A DNA stretch of 64,000 bases, taken from contig NZ_LT605205.1 in NCBI RefSeq assembly GCF_900095135.1, positions 992,001-1,056,000 of the forward strand. The letters run 5' to 3'. Made by a program: the position numbers and the translations under genes. Positions 32,420 to 63,150 of this stretch are shown here, in pieces (the stretch's first letter is position 1; the number at the start of each line of letters is the position of its first letter). The notes beneath the pieces were generated by a model, which had not been told where the DNA came from, ran no database searches, and saw only the letters and a program-made list of their open reading frames with translations. Origin of the DNA: Proteiniphilum saccharofermentans (GTDB taxonomy: Bacteria; Bacteroidota; Bacteroidia; Bacteroidales; Dysgonomonadaceae).

Positions 32420-32466
32420 CTGTGATTTGATTACACCACAACTTCTCTGTAATCGCGGCTGCACAG
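32420..32466 (+). promoter_or_regulatory. Hairpin in the rpsK-rpsD gap
   Basis: GATTACA at 32429-32435 pairs with TGTAATC at 32448-32454, and CTGTG at 32420-32424 pairs with CACAG at 32462-32466 across an internal loop. It lies 36 bp before rpsD. S4 is the autogenous repressor of the alpha operon in several bacteria, so control of rpsD translation is conceivable. Confidence 0.4.
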
Positions 32467-49513: not shown

Positions 49514-50524
49514 CTAATGTAATGGCAGATATATTTTCCGGATTGCTTCCTCGTACTCTTTCCTGCTACTGCTATTGGCGGTAATGCCGCCGCCGCTGCG
49601 GAAAAAGAGTTGTGAACCGCATTGTTCAATGAATCGGATCAATACAAACGATTCTAGTTTTTTACCATCGAAATAACCGGCTACACCGGTGTAGAAGCCG
49701 CGTGCTTCCTTTTCAGCCTCCTTGATGATGCGAAGCGTAGCCTCCTTGGGCGCTCCCGATACGGAACCGGCCGGCAATAATTCGAAGAAAAGTGTTCCCA
49801 GGATATCGAGATACCCTTCCGCCAGAGTTCCCTCGATCTCGGAACTTACCTGTAATATGGATCCCCTGTTTGTCTCCAATGCATCTATGTATCTGAAACG
49901 GTTTACTTTTACAGAGGTAGCTATCCGGCTCAAGTCGTTACGAAGCAGATCCACGATAGTATTATGTTCCGCCGTCTCTTTCCGGTCATTTAACACGATA
50001 TCCCGCGCATAAGGCAGACGTCCGTCGATAGTTCCTTTCATCGGGAAAGTGAATATTTTTCCCTGCTCTATCCGTACAAAACACTCCGGAGAGAAGCATA
50101 CCCATTTGCCTGGCAGGCAGAGCTTATAGGTCGCCCTGCTGGAGAGAAAAATTTCTTCAAATGAGAGAGAACACCTCAATGGAGTTTTTATAGTGAGATT
50201 GACAAGGTAGGAGTCACCTCGTTTCAACCCGTCCATCACCACATTAAAACGCTGTAGATAGGTGACGTAATCTTCAGGATCGGCCTCAAATAAATAGCTG
50301 TCTGTCTGATGAGAAAGAAAAGAGAATGACTTGGGTGTCCCGGAAAGCCCGTGAGGGAAGGTGTTGGACATGCCTTTGATGTCGAAAAGGATCTCTTGTT
50401 GCGACAACGGATCGGCAACAAAAAATCCCTCCCGCATCTCAAAATCTACTGCAAACAGAAACGGCTTTCTCGCTTTTCCCGCTTCGTTCATTTTCTCCTT
50501 TATTTCATTACTGTCGAAAAACAT
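49514..50524 (-). CDS. pabB: Aminodeoxychorismate synthase component I
   Basis: The 336-residue protein is a chorismate-binding enzyme with FPMKGTIDG, the PIKGT-like motif with catalytic lysine of PabB, then EHNTIVDLLRNDLSRI, PAGSVSGAPKEAT and GFYTGVAGYF. It lacks the long N-terminal region of anthranilate synthase TrpE. It makes 4-amino-4-deoxychorismate with a glutaminase subunit (PabA) that is not in this window. Confidence 0.9.
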   Translation of the reverse strand: MFFDSNEIKEKMNEAGKARKPFLFAVDFEMREGFFVADPLSQQEILFDIKGMSNTFPHGLSGTPKSFSFLSHQTDSYLFEADPEDYVTYLQRFNVVMDGLKRGDSYLVNLTIKTPLRCSLSFEEIFLSSRATYKLCLPGKWVCFSPECFVRIEQGKIFTFPMKGTIDGRLPYARDIVLNDRKETAEHNTIVDLLRNDLSRIATSVKVNRFRYIDALETNRGSILQVSSEIEGTLAEGYLDILGTLFFELLPAGSVSGAPKEATLRIIKEAEKEARGFYTGVAGYFDGKKLESFVLIRFIEQCGSQLFFRSGGGITANSSSRKEYEEAIRKIYLPLH

Positions 50525-50923: not shown

Positions 50924-50954
50924 TTTGTTTGTATGGATTTTTGCGTTTACTTTG
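50924..50954 (+). promoter_or_regulatory. Promoter of the branched-chain amino acid operon
   Basis: TTTG at 50924-50927 and TTACTTTG at 50947-50954 are 19 bp apart, a one-mismatch fit to the Bacteroidales -33/-7 pattern. Transcription should start near 50961, about 28 nt before the leader peptide ATG. Confidence 0.6.
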
Positions 50955-50988
50955 CACCCATTAAACAGGAAAAATTTCAATTTGTCGT

Positions 50989-51051
50989 ATGTATTATCAG
51001 GTCGATATTCTAGTCATTTCTATTCTACTTCTGGAAAAATTCGGAGGGTGA
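50989..51051 (+). CDS. Branched-chain leader peptide of the leu-ilv operon
   Basis: A 20-codon frame reads MYYQVDILVISILLLEKFGG and ends in TGA. Nine of residues 5-15 are Val, Ile or Leu, and the codons ATT, CTA, CTT and CTG are mixed. It lies between a good promoter and a perfect terminator hairpin, 109 bp before leuA. This is the composition and position of leader peptides that sense charged tRNA for Val, Ile and Leu. No protein function is expected; translation itself would be the sensor. A chance ORF with this content at this place is unlikely. Confidence 0.85.
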   Translation: MYYQVDILVISILLLEKFGG

Positions 51052-51132
51052 GACTGGCATATCTGTGATTTACATTAGGTAAAAAATATAGGGATAACCT
51101 TTCTCACCGAGTGAGAAAGGTTATCCTTTTTT
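51047..51132 (+). terminator. Transcription attenuator of the leu-ilv operon with antiterminator segment
   Basis: GGATAACCTTTCTCAC at 51092-51107 pairs with all 16 bases of 51111-51126 around a CGA loop and is followed by six Ts: a strong terminator in front of leuA. GGTGAGA at 51047-51053 includes the leader stop codon and is exactly complementary to TCTCACC at 51102-51108 in the terminator's 5' arm and loop. A ribosome stalled on the Ile/Leu codons would leave it free to pair and open the terminator; a ribosome at the stop would cover it. Mechanism is inferred from this geometry. Confidence 0.8.
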
Positions 51133-51159
51133 ATAAAGCTAATAAAAAGGTGAATAATA

Positions 51160-52647
51160 ATGGAACGTATTTATGTATTTGATACAACATTAAGAGATGG
51201 CGAACAGGTTCCCGGTTGTCAGTTGAACACCATTGAGAAGATCCAGGTTGCACAAGCTCTTGAGTTGTTGGGGGTGGATGTAATAGAAGCCGGTTTTCCC
51301 GTATCAAGTCCGGGCGACTTCAATTCGGTAGTCGAAATCTCAAAAGCGGTCACCTGGCCGACTATCTGTGCACTAACCCGTGCTGTTGAAAAGGATATTG
51401 AGGTGGCTGCCGAGGCGTTGAAGTATGCCAAGAGGAAACGGATCCACACCGGTATCGGCACATCCGACTCACATATTAAATACAAGTTCAACTCCAACCG
51501 TGAGGAGATCATCGAACGGGCCGTAAAGGCGGTGAAATATGCCCGTCGTTTCGTGGATGACGTGGAATTCTACGCAGAAGATGCAGGACGCACCGACAAT
51601 GAATACCTTGCCCGGGTGGTACAAGCTGTAGTCAATGCAGGGGCTACCGTAGTGAATATACCCGACACGACCGGCTATTGCTTCCCCGACGAATACGGAG
51701 CAAAAATAAAGTATCTTATAGATAACGTAGACCTGAAAGATGCCATCCTCTCCACCCACTGCCATCAGGATTTGGGAATGGCTACTGCCAACACCATTTC
51801 GGGTGTGCTCAACGGGGCCCGTCAGGTGGAAGTAACCGTCAACGGTATCGGTGAACGTGCCGGAAATACATCGCTCGAAGAAGTGGTGATGGCATTCAAG
51901 AGCCACAAAGACCGCGGATTCGAGACCAATATCAATACACAACATATTTATTCTGCCAGCCGGATGGTATCGAGCCTGATGAATATGCCGGTACAACCCA
52001 ATAAGGCGATTGTGGGAAGGAATGCTTTTGCACATTCTTCCGGAATCCACCAGGATGGTGTCCTCAAGAATGTTGAAACTTACGAAATCATCAATCCCAA
52101 AGATGTAGGAATCGATGATAATGCTATCGTGCTGACTGCCCGTAGTGGACGTGCGGCACTCAAAAACCGCCTGTCGAGCCTGGGCGTGAAACTCGAACCC
52201 CAGGAATTGGATGAGATATATCAGAAGTTCCTTGAAATGGCCGACAAGAAAAAAAATATCAATGACGATGATATACTGATGTTGGTGGGTAAAGATGCAC
52301 GTTTGGACAGGATTAAAGTAGAATACCTCCAGGTATTGTGTGGTATCGGTGTGCGCGATGTAGCCAGCATAGCCCTGAATATTGCCGGAGAACGCTTCGA
52401 AGCGACAGCAAGTGGTAATGGCCCGGTAGATGCAGCTATTCGTGCGGTGAAGAACATTATCCGCAGGAAGGTGAAAATTCGGGAATTCCTTATTCAGGCA
52501 ATCGACCATGGTAGTGATGACATAGGTAAGGTCCACATGCAGGTGGAGCACAACGATATTGTTTATTACGGTTTCTCGGCCAATACCGATATCGTCGCAG
52601 CATCTGTAGAGGCATTTATTGACGCTGTGAATAAGTTCGTTGAATGA
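51160..52647 (+). CDS. leuA: 2-isopropylmalate synthase
   Basis: The 495-residue enzyme has the HMGL-like barrel ([27 protein letters not shown] with the metal-binding histidines, and [14 protein letters not shown]) and a C-terminal LeuA dimer/regulatory domain (about 385-495). It condenses 2-ketoisovalerate with acetyl-CoA, the first leucine-specific step. It is the first structural gene of the operon behind the attenuator. Confidence 0.95.
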
Positions 52648-52692: not shown

Positions 52693-54075
52693 ATGAAGAC
52701 TCTTTTTGATAAGATATGGGATGCGCATGTGGTGACGACCGTGAAAGATGGTCCCACCCAATTATACATCGACAGGCATTTGTGTCACGAAGTGACCAGC
52801 CCCCAGGCCTTTGCTGGCCTTAGGGCACGTGGGTTGACGGTGTTCCGTCCAAAGCAGACTACGTTGACGGCCGACCATAATATTCCCACGATGTGGCAGA
52901 ACAAGCCTATTCGTGATTCTATTTCCCGTTTTCAGGTGGAAACATTGGCTAAAAATGCATCGGATTTTGGATTGACTTATTATGGATTAAATAACCCTAA
53001 GAATGGGATCGTACATGTAATCGGGCCGGAGAATGGTTATACCCAGCCCGGTATGACCATCGTATGTGGCGATAGCCATACTTCTACCCATGGTGCTTTT
53101 GGTGCCATTGCCTTTGGTATCGGTACCAGTGAGGTGGAAATGGTGTTGGCGTCGCAGTGTATCCTGCAGACACGCCCCAAAACCATGCGGATCAATTTTG
53201 AAGGAAAGTTGGGTAAAAATGTAAGTGCAAAAGATATGGCACTTTATATGATTTCCCAGTTGACTACCGGGGGCGCTACCGGCTATTTTGTGGAATATGC
53301 CGGTGAAGCGGTACGCAATCTCACTATGGAAGAGCGGATGACTCTTTGCAACCTCAGTATTGAAATGGGTGCACGTGGAGGATTAGTGGCTCCCGATGAA
53401 ACTACCTTTAACTATATCAAGGGACGTGAATTTGCTCCCAAAGGTGAAAAATGGGAAAAAGCAGTGGCTTATTGGAAAACACTGAAAAGCGATGATGGTG
53501 CCGCCTTTGACAAAGAGGTGACTTTCGATGTGGGCAAGATCCGTCCGATGATTACTTATGGAACCAACCCTGGTATGGGAATGCCTATAGACGGCACTAT
53601 CCCCCGCCTGGATGAAATAGACGAGGCCGGGAAGATATCATTCGAAAAATCGTTAAATTATATGGGATTCTCTCCCGGAGAAAAATTAGAAGGGAAACAG
53701 ATCGATTATGTCTTTCTGGGGAGTTGTACCAACGGTCGTATCGAAGATTTCAGGGTATTTACCAGTTACGTGAAAGGTAAAAAGAAGGCCAATAATGTAA
53801 CGGCATGGTTAGTACCCGGCAGTTGGCAGGTGCGTAAACAGATTGAAGCAGAAGGACTCGACAAGATACTGGAAGAGGCCGGTTTTGAATTGCGTCAGCC
53901 GGGTTGTTCAGCCTGTCTGGCGATGAACGATGATAAAGTCCCGGCAGGGAAATATGCAGTTTCCACTTCTAACCGGAATTTTGAAGGAAGACAGGGACCC
54001 GGAGCAAGAACGATCCTCGCCGGTCCGTTAGTGGCTGCAGCAGCAGCAGTTAATGGGAAAATAACGCAACCGTAA
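52693..54075 (+). CDS. leuC: 3-isopropylmalate dehydratase large subunit
   Basis: The 460-residue aconitase-family protein has the [4Fe-4S] ligands in LGSCTNGR and [11 protein letters not shown] and the substrate segments [13 protein letters not shown] and [11 protein letters not shown]. With LeuD it isomerises 2- to 3-isopropylmalate. If the second synthase makes citramalate, LeuCD probably also acts on it. Confidence 0.96.
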
Positions 54076-54078
54076 CTA

Positions 54079-54240
54079 ATCCCGACAAGTCGGGACATAT
54101 AGTGCCAATCGAAGCGTAGCGAAGATCCCGATATGTCGGGATGAGATTAATAAGCTAATGAGAATTCAGAATTCGGAGTTCAAAATCTTGAATCTTGAAT
54201 TTTGAATCTTAAATTTTGAATTTTGAATCTTGAATTTTGA
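54079..54240. repeat. Compound junction repeat between leuC and leuD
   Basis: Two CCCG palindromes (54079-54097 and 54125-54142) flank AGTGCCAATC and GAAGCGTAGCGAAG. They are followed by seven or more TTGAATCTTGAATTT-type units at 54187-54240, ending 8 bp before the leuD start. Confidence 0.8.
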
Positions 54241-54247
54241 AAAAATA

Positions 54248-54847
54248 ATGGAAAAGTTTAAAACAATAACATCAACATATGTGCCACTTCCTATTGAGAA
54301 TGTGGATACTGACCAGATCATCCCCGCGCGCTTCCTGAAAGCAACTACGCGTGAAGGATTCGGTGATAACCTGTTTGCCGACTGGCGTTATGACAAGGAT
54401 GGAAATCCCAAATCGGATTTTGTACTGAATAACCCGACTTATTCGGGAGAAGTATTGGTAGCCGGAAAAAATTTCGGTAGTGGCAGTAGCCGCGAGCATG
54501 CGGCCTGGGCAATCGGTGGTTACGGGTTTAAGGTGGTCGTATCGAGCTTCTTCGCCGATATTTTCCGTAACAACGCCCTTAACAACGGCATCCTGCCGGT
54601 AGTCGTGAGCGAAAAGTTCCTGAGTGAACTGTTTAAATCTGTAAATAACAATCCGCAGGCAACGGTGACAGTCAATCTGGAAGAGCAAACCATTTCAAAT
54701 AACGAAACCGGCACGGTTGAATCGTTCGAGATCAATCCTTACAAGAAAGAGTGCCTGTTGAAAGGTTTGGATGATATCGACTTTCTCCTTTCCAATAGGG
54801 ATAAGATTGAGGAATATGAGAGAAATCGTGCCTTTGCGTACGAATAG
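54248..54847 (+). CDS. leuD: 3-isopropylmalate dehydratase small subunit
   Basis: The ATG at 54248 gives 199 residues (MEKFKTITSTYVPLPIENVD); an upstream TTG at 54230 lies inside the repeat and is rejected. The active-site loop FGSGSSREHAAWAIGGYG is intact. It pairs with LeuC. Confidence 0.95.
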   Translation: MEKFKTITSTYVPLPIENVDTDQIIPARFLKATTREGFGDNLFADWRYDKDGNPKSDFVLNNPTYSGEVLVAGKNFGSGSSREHAAWAIGGYGFKVVVSSFFADIFRNNALNNGILPVVVSEKFLSELFKSVNNNPQATVTVNLEEQTISNNETGTVESFEINPYKKECLLKGLDDIDFLLSNRDKIEEYERNRAFAYE

Positions 54848-54903: not shown

Positions 54904-56463
54904 TTGGGAGAAGCAAGAAAAATAGAAATCATGGATACCACGCTCCGGGATGGTGAGCAGACCTCCGGCGTGTCGTTTGCGGCACAAGAAAAGGTGAGCG
55001 TGGTGCGCCTTTTGCTCGAAGAGCTGAAGGTCGACCGGGTGGAGATCGCTTCTGCGCGGGTCTCCGAAGGGGAATTCCAGTCCGTGAAAAAAATGGCGCA
55101 GTGGGCGCATACCCATGGTTATATCGACCGGCTCGAGGTGCTGGGATTTGTAGATGGCACCACTTCCCTTGAATGGATCGTGAATGCCGGGTGCAAGGTG
55201 GTGAACTTGCTCTGCAAAGGTTCTTTGAAACACTGTACCTATCAGTTGTGTAAATCGCAGCAAGAACACTTGGCTGATGTAAAGAATACTATCGTCCATG
55301 CACAACGGATGGGGTTGACAGTCAACCTTTATCTTGAAGATTGGTCGAATGGGATGCGCGACTCAAAAGAGTATGTGTTCCGGATGATGGACGGATTGAA
55401 AGATGAAGCAGTGACCCGTTTTATGCTGCCGGATACGCTGGGAGTACTCAATCCCGATGAGACTCATCTATTCTGCTCGGAAATGATTGCTCGTTATCCA
55501 AAACTTCATTTCGATTTTCATGCGCATAACGATTACGATCTGGCTGTGGCTAATGTTTACGAAGCCATCAAAGCCGGTGTGAAAGGGGTGCATGTCACTG
55601 TGAACGGATTGGGAGAACGGGCCGGCAATGCGCCGATTACCAGTGTGGTAGCACTTATTCATGATCACATGGGATTATCTACTAATGTAGATGAATCGAA
55701 GCTCTATAGTGTAAGTAAGGTAGTGGAGAGCTACTCCGGCGTACGTATCCCGAATAATAAGCCGGTTATAGGTGATAATGTATTTACTCAGGTGGCGGGT
55801 GTCCATGCTGACGGCGACAAAAAGAAAAACCTCTATTTCAATGACCTGATGCCCGAACGGTTTGGCCGTTTCCGTGAATATGCACTGGGAAAAAATGCAG
55901 GCCGGTCCAATATCATTAAAAACCTGGAAGCATTGGGTATCGAACTCGATGATGAGGCGACACGTAAAGTGACGGCACGTATCATTGAACTGGGTGACCG
56001 GAAAGAGATCGTGAACCTCGATGAATTGCCTTATATCGTTTCCGATGTGCTGAAGAACGGTGTCGAAAATCAGGATATCAAGATGCTCAACTATTCGCTC
56101 ACACTGACAGACGGATTGAGACCAACCGCCACTGTGAAGATATCGATAAAAGGTGAAATATATCAGGAGACCGCAGCGGGAGACGGACAATATCATGCTT
56201 TTTCAAAAGCAATGTATAAGATATACAAAAAACTCGATAAACCTGCCCCCGAACTGATTGACTATGTCGTGGTAATCCCCCCGGGAGGGAAAACGAACGC
56301 ATATGTGCAGACTGTAATCACCTGGAAATTCCAGGACAAGGTGTTCAAAACCCGTGCGTTGGATATCGACCAGACGGTGGCAGCTATCAAGGCGACAATG
56401 AAAATGTTGAATATGATAGAAAGCGGGAATATTCCCAATATGAATTATATGAGATTACCCTGA
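54904..56463 (+). CDS. cimA: Second 2-isopropylmalate synthase-family enzyme, candidate citramalate synthase (TTG start)
   Basis: The 519-residue protein shares the barrel with LeuA ([48 protein letters not shown]) and a C-terminal LeuA dimer domain (about 400-515). The TTG at 54904 is chosen because family N-termini include [15 protein letters not shown], which the ATG at 54931 would cut. Because leuA is already present and no ilvA lies in the operon, it may condense pyruvate and acetyl-CoA to citramalate for isoleucine. The gene symbol is therefore provisional; a second isopropylmalate synthase is the alternative. Confidence 0.75.
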   Translation: MGEARKIEIMDTTLRDGEQTSGVSFAAQEKVSVVRLLLEELKVDRVEIASARVSEGEFQSVKKMAQWAHTHGYIDRLEVLGFVDGTTSLEWIVNAGCKVVNLLCKGSLKHCTYQLCKSQQEHLADVKNTIVHAQRMGLTVNLYLEDWSNGMRDSKEYVFRMMDGLKDEAVTRFMLPDTLGVLNPDETHLFCSEMIARYPKLHFDFHAHNDYDLAVANVYEAIKAGVKGVHVTVNGLGERAGNAPITSVVALIHDHMGLSTNVDESKLYSVSKVVESYSGVRIPNNKPVIGDNVFTQVAGVHADGDKKKNLYFNDLMPERFGRFREYALGKNAGRSNIIKNLEALGIELDDEATRKVTARIIELGDRKEIVNLDELPYIVSDVLKNGVENQDIKMLNYSLTLTDGLRPTATVKISIKGEIYQETAAGDGQYHAFSKAMYKIYKKLDKPAPELIDYVVVIPPGGKTNAYVQTVITWKFQDKVFKTRALDIDQTVAAIKATMKMLNMIESGNIPNMNYMRLP

Positions 56464-56543: not shown

Positions 56544-57611
56544 ATGCAATTAAAAATAGCTGTACTGCCGGGCGACGGAATAGGCCCGGAGATTATGAAA
56601 CAGGCGCTGAATATTACTTCGGCAGTTTGTGAAAAATTCGGTCATACTTTGACATACAAAGAGGCCATTGTAGGCGCCTGTGCTATTGACGCAACCGGTG
56701 ATCCTTATCCTGCCGAAACGCATGAACTCTGTATGCAGAGTGATGCAGTGCTTTTTGGCGCTATTGGTGACCCCAAATATGATAATGATCCCAATGCCAA
56801 AGTACGTCCAGAGCAAGGATTACTTCGCATGCGCAAACAGTTGGGGCTCTATGGGAATATCCGCCCGGTAATGACTTTTCCTTCACTGGTCCATAAGTCA
56901 CCCTTGCGTGCCGACCTGGTAGATGGTGCTGATTTTGTCTGTATCCGTGAACTTACGGGCGGTATGTATTTCGGTCGCCCCCAGGGTCGCAGTGAAGATG
57001 GCAATACAGCTTATGATACTTGTGTTTATACCCGCGAAGAGATAGAGCGGGTGTTACACCTAGCCTATAAATTTGCCGGTCAGCGACGCAAAAAACTGAC
57101 CGTAGTAGATAAGGCAAACGTAATTGCTACTTCACGACTATGGCGTCAGATTGCACAGGAGATTGCACCCCAATATCCTGATATTGAAACCGATTTCCTC
57201 TTCGTGGACAATGCTGCCATGCGTATTATCCAATGGCCTAAAAGCTTCGATGTGATGGTGACCGAAAATCTTTTTGGTGATATCCTTACTGATGAGGCAT
57301 CCGTGATTACCGGTTCATTGGGATTACTCCCTTCGGCATCCGTCGGCTTACATACATCGCTTTTCGAGCCGATCCATGGATCCTATCCGCAGGCGACCGG
57401 TAAGAATATTGCCAACCCCTTGGCCATGATTTTATCTGCAGCACTGATGTTTGAATATGGTTTCAACCTGATGGAGGAAGGTGCGCTTATCCGTAAGGCA
57501 GTCAACGCAAGCCTTGAAACGGGAGTTGTTACCGAAGATATTGCCGATGGTGGAAAAGCATACAGTACCTCAGACGTAGGAGAGTGGATCGAACGGTTTG
57601 TGAGAGGTTGA
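56544..57611 (+). CDS. leuB: 3-isopropylmalate dehydrogenase
   Basis: The 355-residue enzyme has GDGIGPEIM at the N-terminus, the substrate-arginine region [15 protein letters not shown] and the NAD-binding [30 protein letters not shown] holds metal-binding aspartates. It oxidises 3-isopropylmalate, and homologues also accept 3-methylmalate in the citramalate route. Confidence 0.96.
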
Positions 57612-57672: not shown

Positions 57673-57714
57673 ATCTTGAATCTTGAATTTTGAATCTTGA
57701 ATTTTGAATTTGAA
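57673..57714 (+). repeat. TTGAATCTTGAATTT repeat before ilvD
   Basis: AATCTTGAATCTTGAATTTT and GAATCTTGAATTTTGAATTT directly precede the ilvD ATG. The preceding 60 bp are purine-rich (GAGAAGATGGGAGATTGGAG). Confidence 0.75.
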
Positions 57715-59556
57715 ATGAATAAAAATATAAATAAAAGCGATTTGCGCAGCGCGACTAGTACACAGGGACGCCTTATGGCCGGTGCGCGTGCGCTTTGGCA
57801 TGCCAATGGCATGACACGCGAACAGATGGGGAAACCGATTATCGCTATCGTCAATTCCTTTACGCAGTTCGTTCCGGGCCATACGCACTTGCACGGGATA
57901 GGACAGATGGTAAAGGCGGAGATCGAGAAATTGGGTTGTTTTGCTGCAGAGTTCAATACCATCGCCGTGGATGACGGTATCGCCATGGGACACGACGGTA
58001 TGTTATACTCCCTTCCGTCGCGCGACCTGATCGCCGACTCGGTAGAGTATATGGTCAATGCCCACAAGGCAGATGCCATGATCTGCATCAGTAACTGCGA
58101 CAAGATCACTCCGGGAATGCTGATCGCTGCCATGCGGCTGAATATACCAACAATCTTTGTATCGGGTGGGCCGATGGAAGCAGGGAAGATCGGTGATGAG
58201 CAGATCGACCTAATTGACGCCATGATCGAATCGGCCGACGAGTCGGTTTCCGATGAACGGATAGCCCAACTCGAACAACTGGCTTGTCCTACCTGTGGAT
58301 CCTGTTCCGGAATGTTCACTGCTAACTCCATGAACTGCCTCAATGAGGCAATCGGATTGGCGCTTCCCGGTAACGGAACCATCCTGGCAACGCATGTCAA
58401 CCGCAAGCAACTGTTTATCGACGCTGCACGCCAGATCGTGGAGAATGCTTACAGGTACTACTCTGAGGGTGACGATACGGTGTTGCCGAGGAATATTGCC
58501 ACACGTGAATCTTTCCTCAACGCCATGACGCTCGATATCGCTATGGGTGGTTCTACCAACACCATTCTCCATACGCTGGCCATAGCCCACGAGGGGGAGA
58601 TCGACTTCTCACTCGATGATATCGACGCCCTCTCTCGCCGTGTACCATGCATTTGTAAGGTAGCACCCAACTCGAAAAAATACCATATCCAGGATGTGAA
58701 CCGTGCCGGTGGTATCATGGGGATACTGAATGAACTGGCAAAAGCCGGACTGGTCAATACTTCGGTGCATCGTGCCGATGGACGTACTCTGGCTGAGGCA
58801 TTGAAAGAATATGATATTACCAACGGAAATCCGGGTGAAGAGGCCCGGAGGATCTATTCTTCTGCTCCGGGTAACCGGTACAATATCGTGATGGCTTCAC
58901 AGAATGCACAATTCAAGGAGCTGGATACCGATAGGGAGAACGGCTGTATCCGTAGTGTGGGGCATGCTTATACCAAAGACGGGGGATTGGCCATCCTGAA
59001 AGGGAATATCGCTGAAAAAGGGTGTGTGGTGAAGACTGCCGGTGTGGATGAAAGCATCTGGAAATTCAGCGGTACTGCCAAAGTATTCCATTCGCAGGAT
59101 GATGCCTGCACCGGCATCCTTAACGGAGAGGTACAGGCCGGCGATGTGGTGGTGATTGTCTATGAAGGCCCGAAAGGTGGCCCCGGTATGCAGGAGATGC
59201 TTTATCCTACATCCTATATCAAAGCAAGACACCTCGGAACTGAATGTGCATTGATTACCGACGGGCGTTTTTCGGGTGGTACTTCGGGCCTCTCCATCGG
59301 GCATATCTCTCCTGAAGCGGCCGCAGGTGGCGCTGTCGGACTAGTACGCGACGGAGACATCATCGAGATAGATATTCCTGCCCGTTCCATCAACTTAAAG
59401 ATTTCTGAAGCAGAGCTTCAGGAAAGAAGAAGAGAAGAAGAAGCTAAAGGTGAAAATGCTTTTAAGCCTCAACGCGATAGAGTGATTTCAAAAGCATTGA
59501 AAGCATATGCCGCTTTTGTGAGTTCGGCCGACCTCGGAGCGGTCAGGATCATTTAA
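57715..59556 (+). CDS. ilvD: Dihydroxyacid dehydratase
   Basis: The ATG at 57715 gives 613 residues ([19 protein letters not shown]); an earlier ATG at 57697 lies in the repeat. Cluster cysteines are in [12 protein letters not shown] and [17 protein letters not shown], and [20 protein letters not shown] is the conserved C-terminal motif. It makes 2-keto acids for valine and isoleucine from dihydroxy acids. Confidence 0.96.
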
Positions 59557-59723: not shown

Positions 59724-61448
59724 ATGAACAGAGATAATCAAACGGAAAACATTCCGGGTAGTGAGATACTTATTCGCTCACTGATCGCCGAAGGGGTAGA
59801 TACCATATTCGGCTATCCGGGTGGGGCTATCATGCCTGTATTCGATGCCTTGTACGATCATAAAGATAAGATCAGGCACATACTGGTGCGTCATGAACAG
59901 GGTGCGCTCCATGCAGCACAGGGATATGCAAGGGTTTCGGAAAAGGTAGGGGTGGCTCTTGTCACATCAGGCCCCGGGGCAACTAATGCGATCACCGGCA
60001 TCACCGATGCAATGATGGACAGTACGCCGTTAGTGGTGATCTCGGGGCAGGTCAATTCCACCTTGTTGGGATCTGACGCTTTTCAGGAAGCCGATGTGAT
60101 CGGCGTTACCCAACCCATCACCAAATGGGCTTATCAGGTGCGCCGCGCTGAGGATATCGCATGGGCAGTCTCAAGGGCATTCTATATTGCTTCAAGCGGC
60201 CGGCCCGGCCCTGTGGTATTGGACATTGCAAAAGATGCACAAGTGCTTAAATGTGACTATTCCTACCAAAAGACGACCTTCTTAAGGAGTTATCATCCTC
60301 TGCCCGAAGTGGAAGAGGAGAAGATAAGGATGGCAGCCGATCTCATCAATAGTGCCAAAAAGCCGTTTGCACTGGTTGGGCAGGGAGTAATCCTCGGCAA
60401 TGCCGAGCAGGAGTTATGCGACTTCCTGGAAAAAGGAGGGATTCCTTTCGGGTCGACTATCCTGGGATTGTCGGCTATACCTTCCGGTCATCCTCTTAAT
60501 CAAGGTATGCTGGGTATGCACGGGAACGTGGCAACCAATATCAAGACGAATGAATGTGATGTGTTGATCGCTATCGGGATGCGTTTTGACGACCGTGTGA
60601 CCGGTGACCTGAAGACCTATGCAAAACAGGCTAAGGTGATCCATTTCGATATAGACCTTGCCGAAATGGACAAGAACGTGAAGACTACCGTGAAAGTATT
60701 GGGCGATGCCAAACAAACACTGCCGATGGTAACTGCCCTGATGGAGAAAAAGTCTCATCCCGAATGGTTGGAAGAGTTCAAACCCTATGCACAGAAGGAA
60801 TACGATTGCATCATAAAAAATGAACTCTATCCTGAAAATGGAGGAGAGATAAAGATGGGCGAAGTAGTGAATAAAATCACCGAAGCCACACAAAACAAGG
60901 CAATTTGCGTGACCGATGTGGGACAACACCAGATGATGGCTACCCGTTATTTCAAGTACAATCAATCGCGCAGTATGGTTACATCGGGCGGATTGGGTAC
61001 GATGGGATTCGGCCTGCCCGCCGGTATCGGTGCCAAATATGGCGCACCCGACAGAACGGTTTGCATCTTCGTGGGTGACGGGGGACTGCAGATGACGATC
61101 CAGGAATTTGGCACCATTATGGAGTATGGTATAGATGTGAAGATCATTCTCCTGAACAATAATTATCTGGGGATGGTACGTCAGTGGCAGGAACTCTTTT
61201 TTGACGAACGCTATTCGGAAACACACCTTAAAAATCCTGATTTTATCAAGATTGCTGATGCATACAATATCAAGGGACGGAAAGTGACACAGCGCGCAGA
61301 ACTCGATGCCGCTATACAGGAGATGCTCCAACATAAAGGGGCATACCTGCTTGAAGTGTTGGTGGAAACCAAAGGGATGGTTTACCCGATGGTGCCTGCA
61401 GGAGGGACTATTACCAATATTCTTCTTGGAAATGGAAACTCTTTGTAA
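59724..61448 (+). CDS. ilvB: Acetolactate synthase large subunit
   Basis: The 574-residue ThDP enzyme has the catalytic glutamate in RHEQGALHAAQGYAR, LVTSGPGATNAITG, and the ThDP-Mg motif GDGGLQMTIQEFGTIMEYG to NNNYLGMV. It makes acetolactate or acetohydroxybutyrate. A 167-bp gap with a possible promoter separates it from ilvD. Confidence 0.96.
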   Translation: MNRDNQTENIPGSEILIRSLIAEGVDTIFGYPGGAIMPVFDALYDHKDKIRHILVRHEQGALHAAQGYARVSEKVGVALVTSGPGATNAITGITDAMMDSTPLVVISGQVNSTLLGSDAFQEADVIGVTQPITKWAYQVRRAEDIAWAVSRAFYIASSGRPGPVVLDIAKDAQVLKCDYSYQKTTFLRSYHPLPEVEEEKIRMAADLINSAKKPFALVGQGVILGNAEQELCDFLEKGGIPFGSTILGLSAIPSGHPLNQGMLGMHGNVATNIKTNECDVLIAIGMRFDDRVTGDLKTYAKQAKVIHFDIDLAEMDKNVKTTVKVLGDAKQTLPMVTALMEKKSHPEWLEEFKPYAQKEYDCIIKNELYPENGGEIKMGEVVNKITEATQNKAICVTDVGQHQMMATRYFKYNQSRSMVTSGGLGTMGFGLPAGIGAKYGAPDRTVCIFVGDGGLQMTIQEFGTIMEYGIDVKIILLNNNYLGMVRQWQELFFDERYSETHLKNPDFIKIADAYNIKGRKVTQRAELDAAIQEMLQHKGAYLLEVLVETKGMVYPMVPAGGTITNILLGNGNSL

Positions 61449-61491: not shown

Positions 61492-62067
61492 ATGGACGGG
61501 AATAAAACATTATATACCATCACTATTTTCTCCGAAAATACGGTAGGTGTGCTCAATCAAATCACGACGATCTTTACCCGAAGGCAACTCAATATCGAGA
61601 CATTGTCTGTCTCTCCTTCTGCAATCCGCGGGATACATAAATTCACCATTACCACTTTTTCCGACAGCGAAGAGGTGATGAAAAAACTGGTACGGTTGAT
61701 CGACAAGCGGGTAGATATCCTGAAGGCCTATTTCAATACAAACGAGGACCTGGTCCATCAGGAATTGGCGCTTTATAAGCTCTCCACAGAGAAAGTGATG
61801 GAGCACGGTTCCATAGAATATCTGGTGAGAAAGTATAATATCCGGGTTCTGGAGGTCAACAAAGACTGCGTGGTATTCCTGAAGGCAGGACATTACGAAG
61901 AGACCCAGGGACTCTTCGAGGAACTGGCCGATACCATCGGTGTGTTGCAGTTCGTTCGTTCGGGAAGGATTGCTATCACCAAATCGAAAGTAGAACGTTT
62001 GAGTGATATGCTGGCCAAATGGGAACAGCAAAGGATCGTCATTGTCAATCCGGAAAGTGCAATATAA
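61492..62067 (+). CDS. ilvN: Acetolactate synthase regulatory subunit
   Basis: The 191-residue protein has an N-terminal ACT domain (TLYTITIFSENTVGVLNQIT, IFTRRQLNIETLSVSPS) and an IlvH-type C-terminal domain. ACT domains of this family bind valine for feedback control of IlvB. It starts 43 bp after ilvB. Confidence 0.95.
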   Translation: MDGNKTLYTITIFSENTVGVLNQITTIFTRRQLNIETLSVSPSAIRGIHKFTITTFSDSEEVMKKLVRLIDKRVDILKAYFNTNEDLVHQELALYKLSTEKVMEHGSIEYLVRKYNIRVLEVNKDCVVFLKAGHYEETQGLFEELADTIGVLQFVRSGRIAITKSKVERLSDMLAKWEQQRIVIVNPESAI

Positions 62068-62103: not shown

Positions 62104-63150
62104 ATGGCAAAAATGAATTTTGGCGGGGTTGAGGAAAATGTAGTTACTCGCGAGGAATTTCCCCTTGAAAAAGCTCGGGAGGTATTGAAAGATGAAACAA
62201 TCGCGGTGATTGGTTACGGCGTGCAAGGTCCCGGACAATCCCTCAACCTGCGTGATAACGGTTTTAATGTGATCATAGGACAACGGAAAGAGAGTAAAAC
62301 CTGGGATAAGGCGGTAGCCGACGGCTGGGTGCCGGGCGAGACGCTTTTCGAAATTGAAGAAGCATGTGAACGGGGGACTATTATTCAATACCTGCTGTCT
62401 GATGCGGCACAAATTACCTTATGGGACACAGTGAAGAAACATCTGACTCCCGGCAAGGCACTCTATTTCTCACACGGCTTCGGTATTACCTATAAAGACC
62501 GTACCGGGATTGTTCCTCCTGCCGATGTGGATGTGATCCTGGTTGCTCCCAAAGGGTCGGGTACGAGCCTCCGTAAGATGTTTCTGGAAGGACGGGGGTT
62601 GAACTCCAGCTATGCCGTTTATCAGGACGCTACCGGAAAGGCACACGACCGTGCTGTCGCACTCGGTATTGGCGTTGGTTCAGGTTACCTGTTTGAAACT
62701 GATTTCAAACGCGAAGTATATTCCGACCTGACGGGCGAGCGTGGTACGCTGATGGGGGCTATTCAGGGATTGTTGCTGGCACAATATGAAGTGTTGCGTG
62801 AAAACGGACACACACCCTCTGAGGCATTTAATGAAACTGTAGAAGAGCTAACCCAGTCGTTGATGCCGTTATTTGCCGAGAAAGGGATGGACTGGATGTA
62901 TGCCAACTGTTCTACTACTGCGCAACGTGGCGCTCTCGACTGGATGGGGCCGTTCCATGATGCTACCAAGCCGGTATTCGAAAAGCTCTATAAAGAAGTC
63001 GCCTGCGGCAATGAAGCACAACGTTCTATCGACAGCAATTCTCAGGCCGACTACCGGGAAAAACTGGAAGAGGAATTGAAAGCCCTTCGCGAAAGTGAAA
63101 TGTGGCAGACCGGAGCTGTCGTGAGAAAGCTGCGTCCGGAGAATAATTGA
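62104..63150 (+). CDS. ilvC: Ketol-acid reductoisomerase
   Basis: The 348-residue enzyme has the dinucleotide motif GYGVQGPGQSLNL, followed by IIGQRKESKTW as cofactor-specificity loop, and the knotted all-helical domain with Mg ligands in SDLTGERGTLMGAIQGLL and EAFNETVEELTQS. It turns acetolactate into dihydroxyisovalerate. It is last in the operon and is followed by a terminator. Confidence 0.96.
   Translation: MAKMNFGGVEENVVTREEFPLEKAREVLKDETIAVIGYGVQGPGQSLNLRDNGFNVIIGQRKESKTWDKAVADGWVPGETLFEIEEACERGTIIQYLLSDAAQITLWDTVKKHLTPGKALYFSHGFGITYKDRTGIVPPADVDVILVAPKGSGTSLRKMFLEGRGLNSSYAVYQDATGKAHDRAVALGIGVGSGYLFETDFKREVYSDLTGERGTLMGAIQGLLLAQYEVLRENGHTPSEAFNETVEELTQSLMPLFAEKGMDWMYANCSTTAQRGALDWMGPFHDATKPVFEKLYKEVACGNEAQRSIDSNSQADYREKLEEELKALRESEMWQTGAVVRKLRPENN

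Follow-up and report, generated by a model that had tools for sequence, protein, structure and literature searches.

The enterobacterial leuL, ilvL and ilvB leaders are leader-peptide attenuators, with CTA a prominent codon in leuL, and classical attenuators of this kind act as kinetic switches. Outside that group, one study reports a Leu-rich attenuator for the Staphylococcus aureus ilv-leu operon and suppressor mutations that back attenuation at its ilvD leader (PMC5794164). Among the Bacteroidota, the Bacteroidete tryptophan peptide leader RNA (Bacteroid-trp, Rfam RF01692) is named in Table 1 of PMC2864571, and a transcriptome study of Flavobacterium psychrophilum infers leader-peptide attenuation before amino-acid operons (PMC9723704). 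In a 2010 paper such attenuators were held to be little described outside Proteobacteria and Actinobacteria, plus a His leader in bacilli (PMC2965389); the preliminary description of the locus studied here said much the same of Proteobacteria and Actinobacteria, a statement that is too strong today in view of RF01692 and of what the S. aureus (PMC5794164) and Flavobacterium (PMC9723704) studies report.

Here we describe a leader region in front of leuA of Proteiniphilum saccharofermentans (Bacteroidales) which, on comparative sequence evidence, is very probably a classical ribosome-mediated transcription attenuator. It lies on the plus strand of a 64,000-nt stretch of contig NZ_LT605205.1, hereafter the window, whose numbering is used throughout. 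The leader ORF, MYYQVDILVISILLLEKFGG plus stop, spans 50989-51051, with 20 codons from the ATG at 50989 and a TGA at 51049-51051, and is kept in relatives. Its core at 51007-51033 (ATT CTA GTC ATT TCT ATT CTA CTT CTG) consists of Ile, Leu and Val codons and one Ser codon; one Val codon lies in this core and another near the N-terminus. Behind the ORF follow a hairpin at 51090-51128, with a perfect 16-bp stem (51092-51107 with 51111-51126, loop 51108-51110; 18 pairs when counted from 51090), a T6 tract at 51127-51132 and leuA. The ORF, stem, T tract and leuA named in the preliminary description can all be read directly in the sequence.

This short ORF, rich in regulated codons, precedes the matching biosynthetic genes. 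Nine genes run in one direction behind the leader, as had been proposed: leuA, encoding 2-isopropylmalate synthase (51160-52647), leuC (52693-54075), leuD (54230-54847, start codon approximate), a citramalate-synthase-like gene (54904-56463), leuB (56544-57611), ilvD (57697-59556), ilvB (59724-61448), ilvN (61492-62067) and ilvC (62104-63150). Assignments were made with NCBIfam; for the citramalate-synthase-like gene the best model, NF042433, scored below its cut-off. This gene may provide a second route to isoleucine, and one transcript probably covers all nine genes.

Upstream of the ORF, TTTG at 50924-50927 and TACTTTG at 50948-50954 presumably represent the -33-like and -7-like parts of a Bacteroidetes-type promoter, and transcription would start near 50960. 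Of 91 related leaders, 89 carry a TAn(n)TTTG element no more than 75 nt 5' of their start, compared with 11% of shuffles, and a TTG stood at a like distance, as the -33-like part, in 84 of the 91, a count made without shuffle control. A sigma-70 promoter scan returned no plus-strand promoter at the place named in the preliminary description and nothing useful across the leader, while the -33/-7 pair that it had pointed out is present there in Bacteroidetes-type form with a conserved -7-like element. The neighbouring upstream gene encodes aminodeoxychorismate synthase component I; it lies at 49514-50524 on the minus strand and is divergent from leuA.

This layout bears on one alternative, namely that the hairpin is a constitutive intergenic terminator, or that a transcript from upstream ends there, and that the hydrophobic ORF stands before it by chance. 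The hairpin is indeed terminator-like on both strands, and when the 635-nt intergenic region was mononucleotide-shuffled 2000 times, an ATG-initiated small ORF with at least eight Ile, Leu or Val per nine residues arose in 19 of the shuffles; because such ORFs arise at this rate, the ORF alone is weak evidence. Against this alternative stand the minus-strand orientation of the upstream gene, the promoter-like element between that gene and the ORF, and the preservation of ORF, antiterminator and spacing in many relatives. Taken by itself, the leader region is modestly unusual and no more than suggestive, and the decision comes from comparison with relatives.

LeuA relatives yielded 110 loci with upstream DNA, corresponding to 106 distinct regions. 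The preliminary description had called for a search for relatives lacking the ORF or its codons; in that comparison, a matching element with a CCTTTCTCAC-type terminator arm preceded leuA in 92 of the 106 regions (91 found by script and one, L061, by eye; L020 is doubtful), and none was seen by eye in the remaining 14. A strict terminator finder had placed the motif in 82 of the 106 and missed several plain cases, and a looser anchor (91 of 106) was therefore adopted. A covariance model built from 58 of these sequences matched 53 of 198 genomes of the order at E <= 1e-4 under strict filters, the denominator comprising all genomes, leuA carriers or not. The predicted leu/ilv element is widespread in Bacteroidales. 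Its carriers include members of Bacteroides, for example L029 and L062. At several related loci rRNA genes precede the leuA leader, 23S and 5S in two cases (L029, L118) and 5S in another (L053); at L020, two tRNA genes are found upstream of leuA.

Within this set, the predicted ORF is real by virtue of its conservation and not of its rarity in a single sequence. An ATG start was found in 89 of 92 leaders; of the exceptions, L020 is doubtful, L108 starts with GTG, and at L011 the script took a wrong frame with a GTG start, the likely leader lying in another frame. In an alignment of the closer set, indels within the ORF of own-genus members measured +3, +3, +3 and +6 (L096, L097, L107 and L089), the first of these inserting an extra Val codon, and such multiples of three support the predicted translation of the leader. 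Among the three next relatives in the same alignment, L007 carries a +3 change and L006 a +1 change behind the core that shifts the stop 9 nt on. The spacer 3' of the leader stop varies freely in length.

These indels also bear on a second alternative, in which a structured RNA, either a riboswitch or a protein-bound leader, senses a free amino acid or a pathway intermediate and the ORF is incidental. In close relatives, synonymous positions of the leader are conserved, which is what constraint on the RNA would produce. The own-genus indels in multiples of three argue against such an RNA, and so does the composition of the peptide, which, unlike the sequence, tracks the downstream gene. In the order as a whole, conservation is confined mainly to the switch helices and an ATT-CT core, and neither the window leader nor 36 leuA loci, 32 of them with a clear element, matched any Rfam family at gathering score. 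We consider a structured RNA of this type highly improbable.

The predicted switch of the attenuator consists of two mutually exclusive helices, an intrinsic terminator between the ORF and the first gene and an alternative antiterminator that excludes it, and both covary. The antiterminator strand, segment 2, lies at 51046-51054, overlaps the leader stop codon and reads GGGTGAGAC in the window and GGAAGTGAG in Bacteroides. Its partner, segment 3 (TCTCACC, 51102-51108), is common to both helices and comprises the loop-side half of the terminator 5' arm together with loop bases; the terminator itself is formed by segments 3 and 4. In an alignment of 58 diverse sequences, hand-chosen out of the 92 by leaving out 24 close relatives and ten further loci, antiterminator pairing was seen in 90.1% of cells, and 8 of the 9 pairs showed two-sided changes; for the terminator the values were 90.3% of cells and 10 of 14 pairs. 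The sequences share ancestry, so that these covariation counts are not independent events.

For the antiterminator, none of 500 shuffles scored as high on percentage paired, on cells changed on both sides or on covariation score, while the observed values for two other measures, the number of pairs and the pair types, were reached by 1 and by 30 shuffles, respectively. Controls in which the helix was slid along the alignment were 38-64% paired. The corresponding controls for the terminator gave 0 of 500 shuffles on all five measures and 38-68% pairing when slid. In most sequences the terminator stem does not include the loop bases, so that their covarying with segment 2 is evidence for the antiterminator in its own right. 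In a less selected set, the 77 of 106 loci admitted by a stricter anchor, the upstream stretch was compared with its own shuffles, and antiterminator pairing reached p <= 0.05 in 60 loci and was absent at that level in 17. Applied alone to the 58 sequences, RNAalifold predicted only nine terminator pairs; on the closer set, it recovered the terminator and a 5' structure holding part of segment 2. A covarying antiterminator makes a constitutive terminator very unlikely, and we regard the probability of that reading as negligible.

The base helix of the 5' (protector) structure, taken from a consensus fold of 33 close relatives, pairs GATATTCTAGTC at 51004-51015 with GACTGGCATATC at 51052-51063. 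The 175-nt leader folded much better than shuffled sequences (z -5.9, 0 of 200 as good), and the score fell to z -1.2 when the leader was cut before the terminator 3' arm, so the excess stability is mostly due to the terminator.

The regulated codons of the attenuator are placed such that a stalled ribosome would free the antiterminator strand and a ribosome at the stop would cover segment 2. In 78 of 92 leaders, 10-17 nt separate the end of the last Ile or Leu codon from segment 2, and in 45 the distance is exactly 12 nt; the same 10-17 nt spacing was found in 48 of 62 leaders outside the own genus. This distance corresponds to the predicted reach of a stalled ribosome. Relative to the first base of segment 2, the leader stop begins anywhere from 12 nt upstream to 34 nt downstream; in 83 of 92 leaders it begins 0-23 nt downstream.

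We modelled occlusion by placing a ribosome-sized block on the window RNA and holding every base 5' of the block unpaired. With the ribosome at the stop, the antiterminator was blocked and the terminator formed. Stalls at codons 7, 9, 13 and 15 gave the antiterminator (mean pairing >= 0.90) as long as the nascent end had not passed 51118. When no ribosome was placed, antiterminator formation was partial, with a mean pairing of 0.35 at 51108 and 0.62 at 51114, and the terminator was in charge by 51118. Once the nascent end reached 51122, most stalled states already favoured the terminator, and in the full-length RNA it was the stable form whatever the ribosome state; because the terminator leads at both points, the switch must be kinetic.

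According to this model, the leader would be transcribed from the Bacteroidetes-type promoter and the 20-codon ORF translated during RNA synthesis. As long as the tRNAs for Leu, Ile and probably Val are charged, the ribosome would reach the stop and cover segment 2, segments 3 and 4 would pair, and RNA polymerase would stop at the T tract. A lack of charged Leu or Ile tRNA would instead stall the ribosome in codons 7-15 and leave segment 2 free to pair with segment 3 ahead of the synthesis of segment 4; this putative kinetic trapping would permit readthrough into leuA and the genes beyond. Without translation, the 5' structure would hold part of segment 2 and the terminator would win in the end. 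The switch most likely turns on the leu-ilv genes when these amino acids run short.

The residues encoded before the antiterminator strand bear on which amino acids are sensed. Across the 92 leaders, Leu accounts for 22.6%, Ile for 21.3% and Val for 4.5% of these residues, and across the 62 leaders outside the own genus for 22.6%, 22.0% and 2.8%, compared with 8.4%, 7.3% and 7.9% in 13 window genes. Leu and Ile are thus enriched over all leaders and Val is not; at least two Ile codons occur in 89 and at least two Leu codons in 91 of the 92 leaders, whereas Val is wholly absent from 38. CTA makes up 146 of the 396 Leu codons in the leaders and 2.7% of those in the 13 window genes. The proposal in the preliminary description that one leader senses all three branched-chain tRNAs agrees with the enrichment of Leu and Ile and needs qualifying for Val.

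Family genomes were classified as joined when leuA was followed within 12 kb by ilvD in the same orientation, and leaders were read for part of them. The two genes are joined in 42 genomes from seven genera; in five other genera ilvD lies elsewhere, mostly on another contig and three times on the same contig at a distance of about 80 kb or more. A core Val codon was found in all 36 family leaders read where leu and ilv genes are joined (14/14 outside the own genus and 22/22 within it), as against 1 of 25 leuA leaders in genera with separate genes. Leaders of separate ilvD genes contain Val in 17 of 19 cases. Eight further own-genus leaders, whose gene arrangement is hidden by contig ends or a missing match, all carry it as well. 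The contrast reflects few evolutionary events and has three exceptions: L008 looks joined, as judged from coordinates only, and has no core Val; in G036, where likeness indicates that leuC to ilvD are joined, leuA lies on a separate contig and its leader lacks Val; and in G021 leuA and ilvD each have their own leader, yet the leuA leader contains Val.

These exceptions, the scarcity of Val over all leaders and the position of the window's core Val codon within the base helix would fit a leader that senses Leu and Ile only, its Val codon being kept for RNA pairing (CTAGTC with GACTGG). The extra Val codon inserted in L096, the presence of core Val in every joined leader read and its near absence from separate leuA leaders, together with the frequency of Val in separate ilvD leaders, weigh against this alternative, which we consider tentative but far from negligible. 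The association with joined operons fits sensing of Val without proving it. It is plausible that one predicted leader responds to Leu, Ile and Val where it serves joined leu and ilv genes, and the window leader may be of this type.

Leaders of related design precede other genes. In the own genome, the covariance model recovered the leuA leader and weaker matches, including a Trp leader (MNNSLLNGYWWRYLQLSKS) before trpB that matches Rfam Bacteroid-trp (RF01692). Two more leaders came to light on direct inspection: a His leader (MKANLFHHHHFHTCNQAS), accompanied by a terminator, stands before hisG, and a Thr leader (MQRLYSTYLHTTTTMTMTP) precedes an aspartokinase gene of bifunctional length; at the Thr leader no standard terminator was recognised. 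All three (L229, L230 and L147 for His, Thr and Trp) lie outside the window. Two other own-genome matches were discounted as terminators, one at 1470377 (L148), where no leader ORF was visible, and one on the minus strand of the same hairpin (L114). The weak matches L116 and L117 (E 3.8 and 7.4) had no recognisable amino-acid gene behind them, and a dapA-like ORF stood before one.

Across 296 genomes of the class, 51 matched at E <= 0.01. Gene identities at the class loci were taken from NCBIfam for representatives and otherwise from N-terminal likeness. Apart from those of the own genome, 29 loci comprised eight before leuA, one before ilvD, three before ilvE, five before aspartokinase (thrA-like) genes and four before ilvB, one of which (L135, an ilvB-like gene) has no matching leader. 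Single loci stood before hisG, asnA, a NirA-like gene and an ACT-domain-like gene without family match, and four (L131, L134, L137, L142) were not tied to an amino-acid gene. Among genomes of the order, seven further elements were found, six before ilvD and one before leuA. The 20 regions read there, representing 22 of the 69 listed places, lie before leuA (14) or ilvD (6), and a leader was seen in 19, L252 showing none. Leader residues broadly match the gene, with Leu/Ile at leuA, Val/Ile/Leu at ilvD and ilvB, Thr/Ile at thrA-like genes and His at hisG; L254 and L258, before ilvD, contain little or no Val.

Several loci depart from the single-leader layout. Two order genomes (L239, L240) carry tandem leader-terminator units before ilvD. 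Before asnA (L233, L234, L235, the first of which is also class locus L140), two tandem Asn-rich leaders are each followed by what by eye is a terminator-like hairpin, for example MKTNFNNNFYFNPKN with MMNFYFNNNFNYATPPGGD and MKKLNNNNLFNNQF with MKNMKTNINNNLNNNPPPEEGK; such pairs occurred in 3 of 5 matching genomes among 46 searched, and no Asn-rich leader was present in the 330 nt before the own-genome asnA. We know of no Asn-sensing leader attenuator, and a literature search on this subject returned nothing evidently on topic. At L144, in one class genome, a Cys/Met-rich small ORF (MKLTFNLIMCMCFMCLRMRNGSTMHYCKR) precedes a NirA/sulfite-reductase-like gene.

Because both helices covary, the spacing is ribosome-sized, indels keep the core frame and codons follow the downstream pathway, we read the leuA leader as an attenuator, and the ribosome-mediated mechanism advanced in the preliminary description is strongly supported. 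Beyond this locus, we think it reasonably likely that the Bacteroidota hold a wide range of ribosome-mediated attenuators that share a common plan and are for the most part uncatalogued, in which codons are retuned as operons join or split (with Val in the leuA leader when it serves ilv genes) and which includes tandem switches at ilvD and, in one clade, tandem Asn leaders at asnA. A sequence-defined leu/ilv switch is now placed in a major gut and environmental group, where the Rfam amino-acid leader that we met was Bacteroid-trp. The family offers a natural test of codon sensing, in that leader residues track the pathway to which the gene belongs and seem to shift with the architecture of the operon. 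Bacteroides translation proceeds mostly without Shine-Dalgarno pairing, and for this reason a leader that needs the ribosome close behind the polymerase would inform on transcription-translation coupling in the phylum.

Comparison with catalogued leaders sets the family apart. At relaxed E-value, Rfam gave only matches below gathering scores on the leader, and no T-box model appeared among these or among the Rfam matches in the window. Termite-leu (RF01730) was not matched in the 36 leuA loci, nor was Bacteroid-trp (RF01692) at gathering score in these loci or in the window. An S4-Bacteroidia ribosomal protein leader (RF03139) lies elsewhere in the window, at 32429-32461. Our literature search recognised no description of a Bacteroidales leu/ilv leader, and Lopatovskaya et al. 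2010 (cited in PMC4833913) may hold an earlier prediction. Leader-peptide attenuation is a classic kind of control, known in this phylum too, and its leu/ilv family in Bacteroidales is apparently undescribed.

Among the described systems, Bacteroid-trp shares with the leuA leader the phylum, a leader ORF with regulated codons, a 5' structure and a terminator arm, and differs in its Trp codons, its gene (trpB) and its sequence. In F. psychrophilum, also of this phylum (Flavobacteria), a main-text section describes conserved 5' elements before pheA and hisG and does not name leuA (PMC9723704). The S. aureus ilvD leader likewise places one Leu/Ile-rich leader with a terminator before a joined ilv-leu operon; it belongs to the Firmicutes, is combined with CodY, and is likened here by description and not by sequence (PMC5794164). 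With the enterobacterial leu and ilv attenuators, the leuA leader has in common an ORF rich in regulated codons, an antiterminator and a terminator that exclude each other, leu or ilv genes as the target of control, and prominent CTA. Unlike them, it matches no Rfam leader, its segment 2 overlaps the stop codon, and one leader stands before joined leu-ilv genes.
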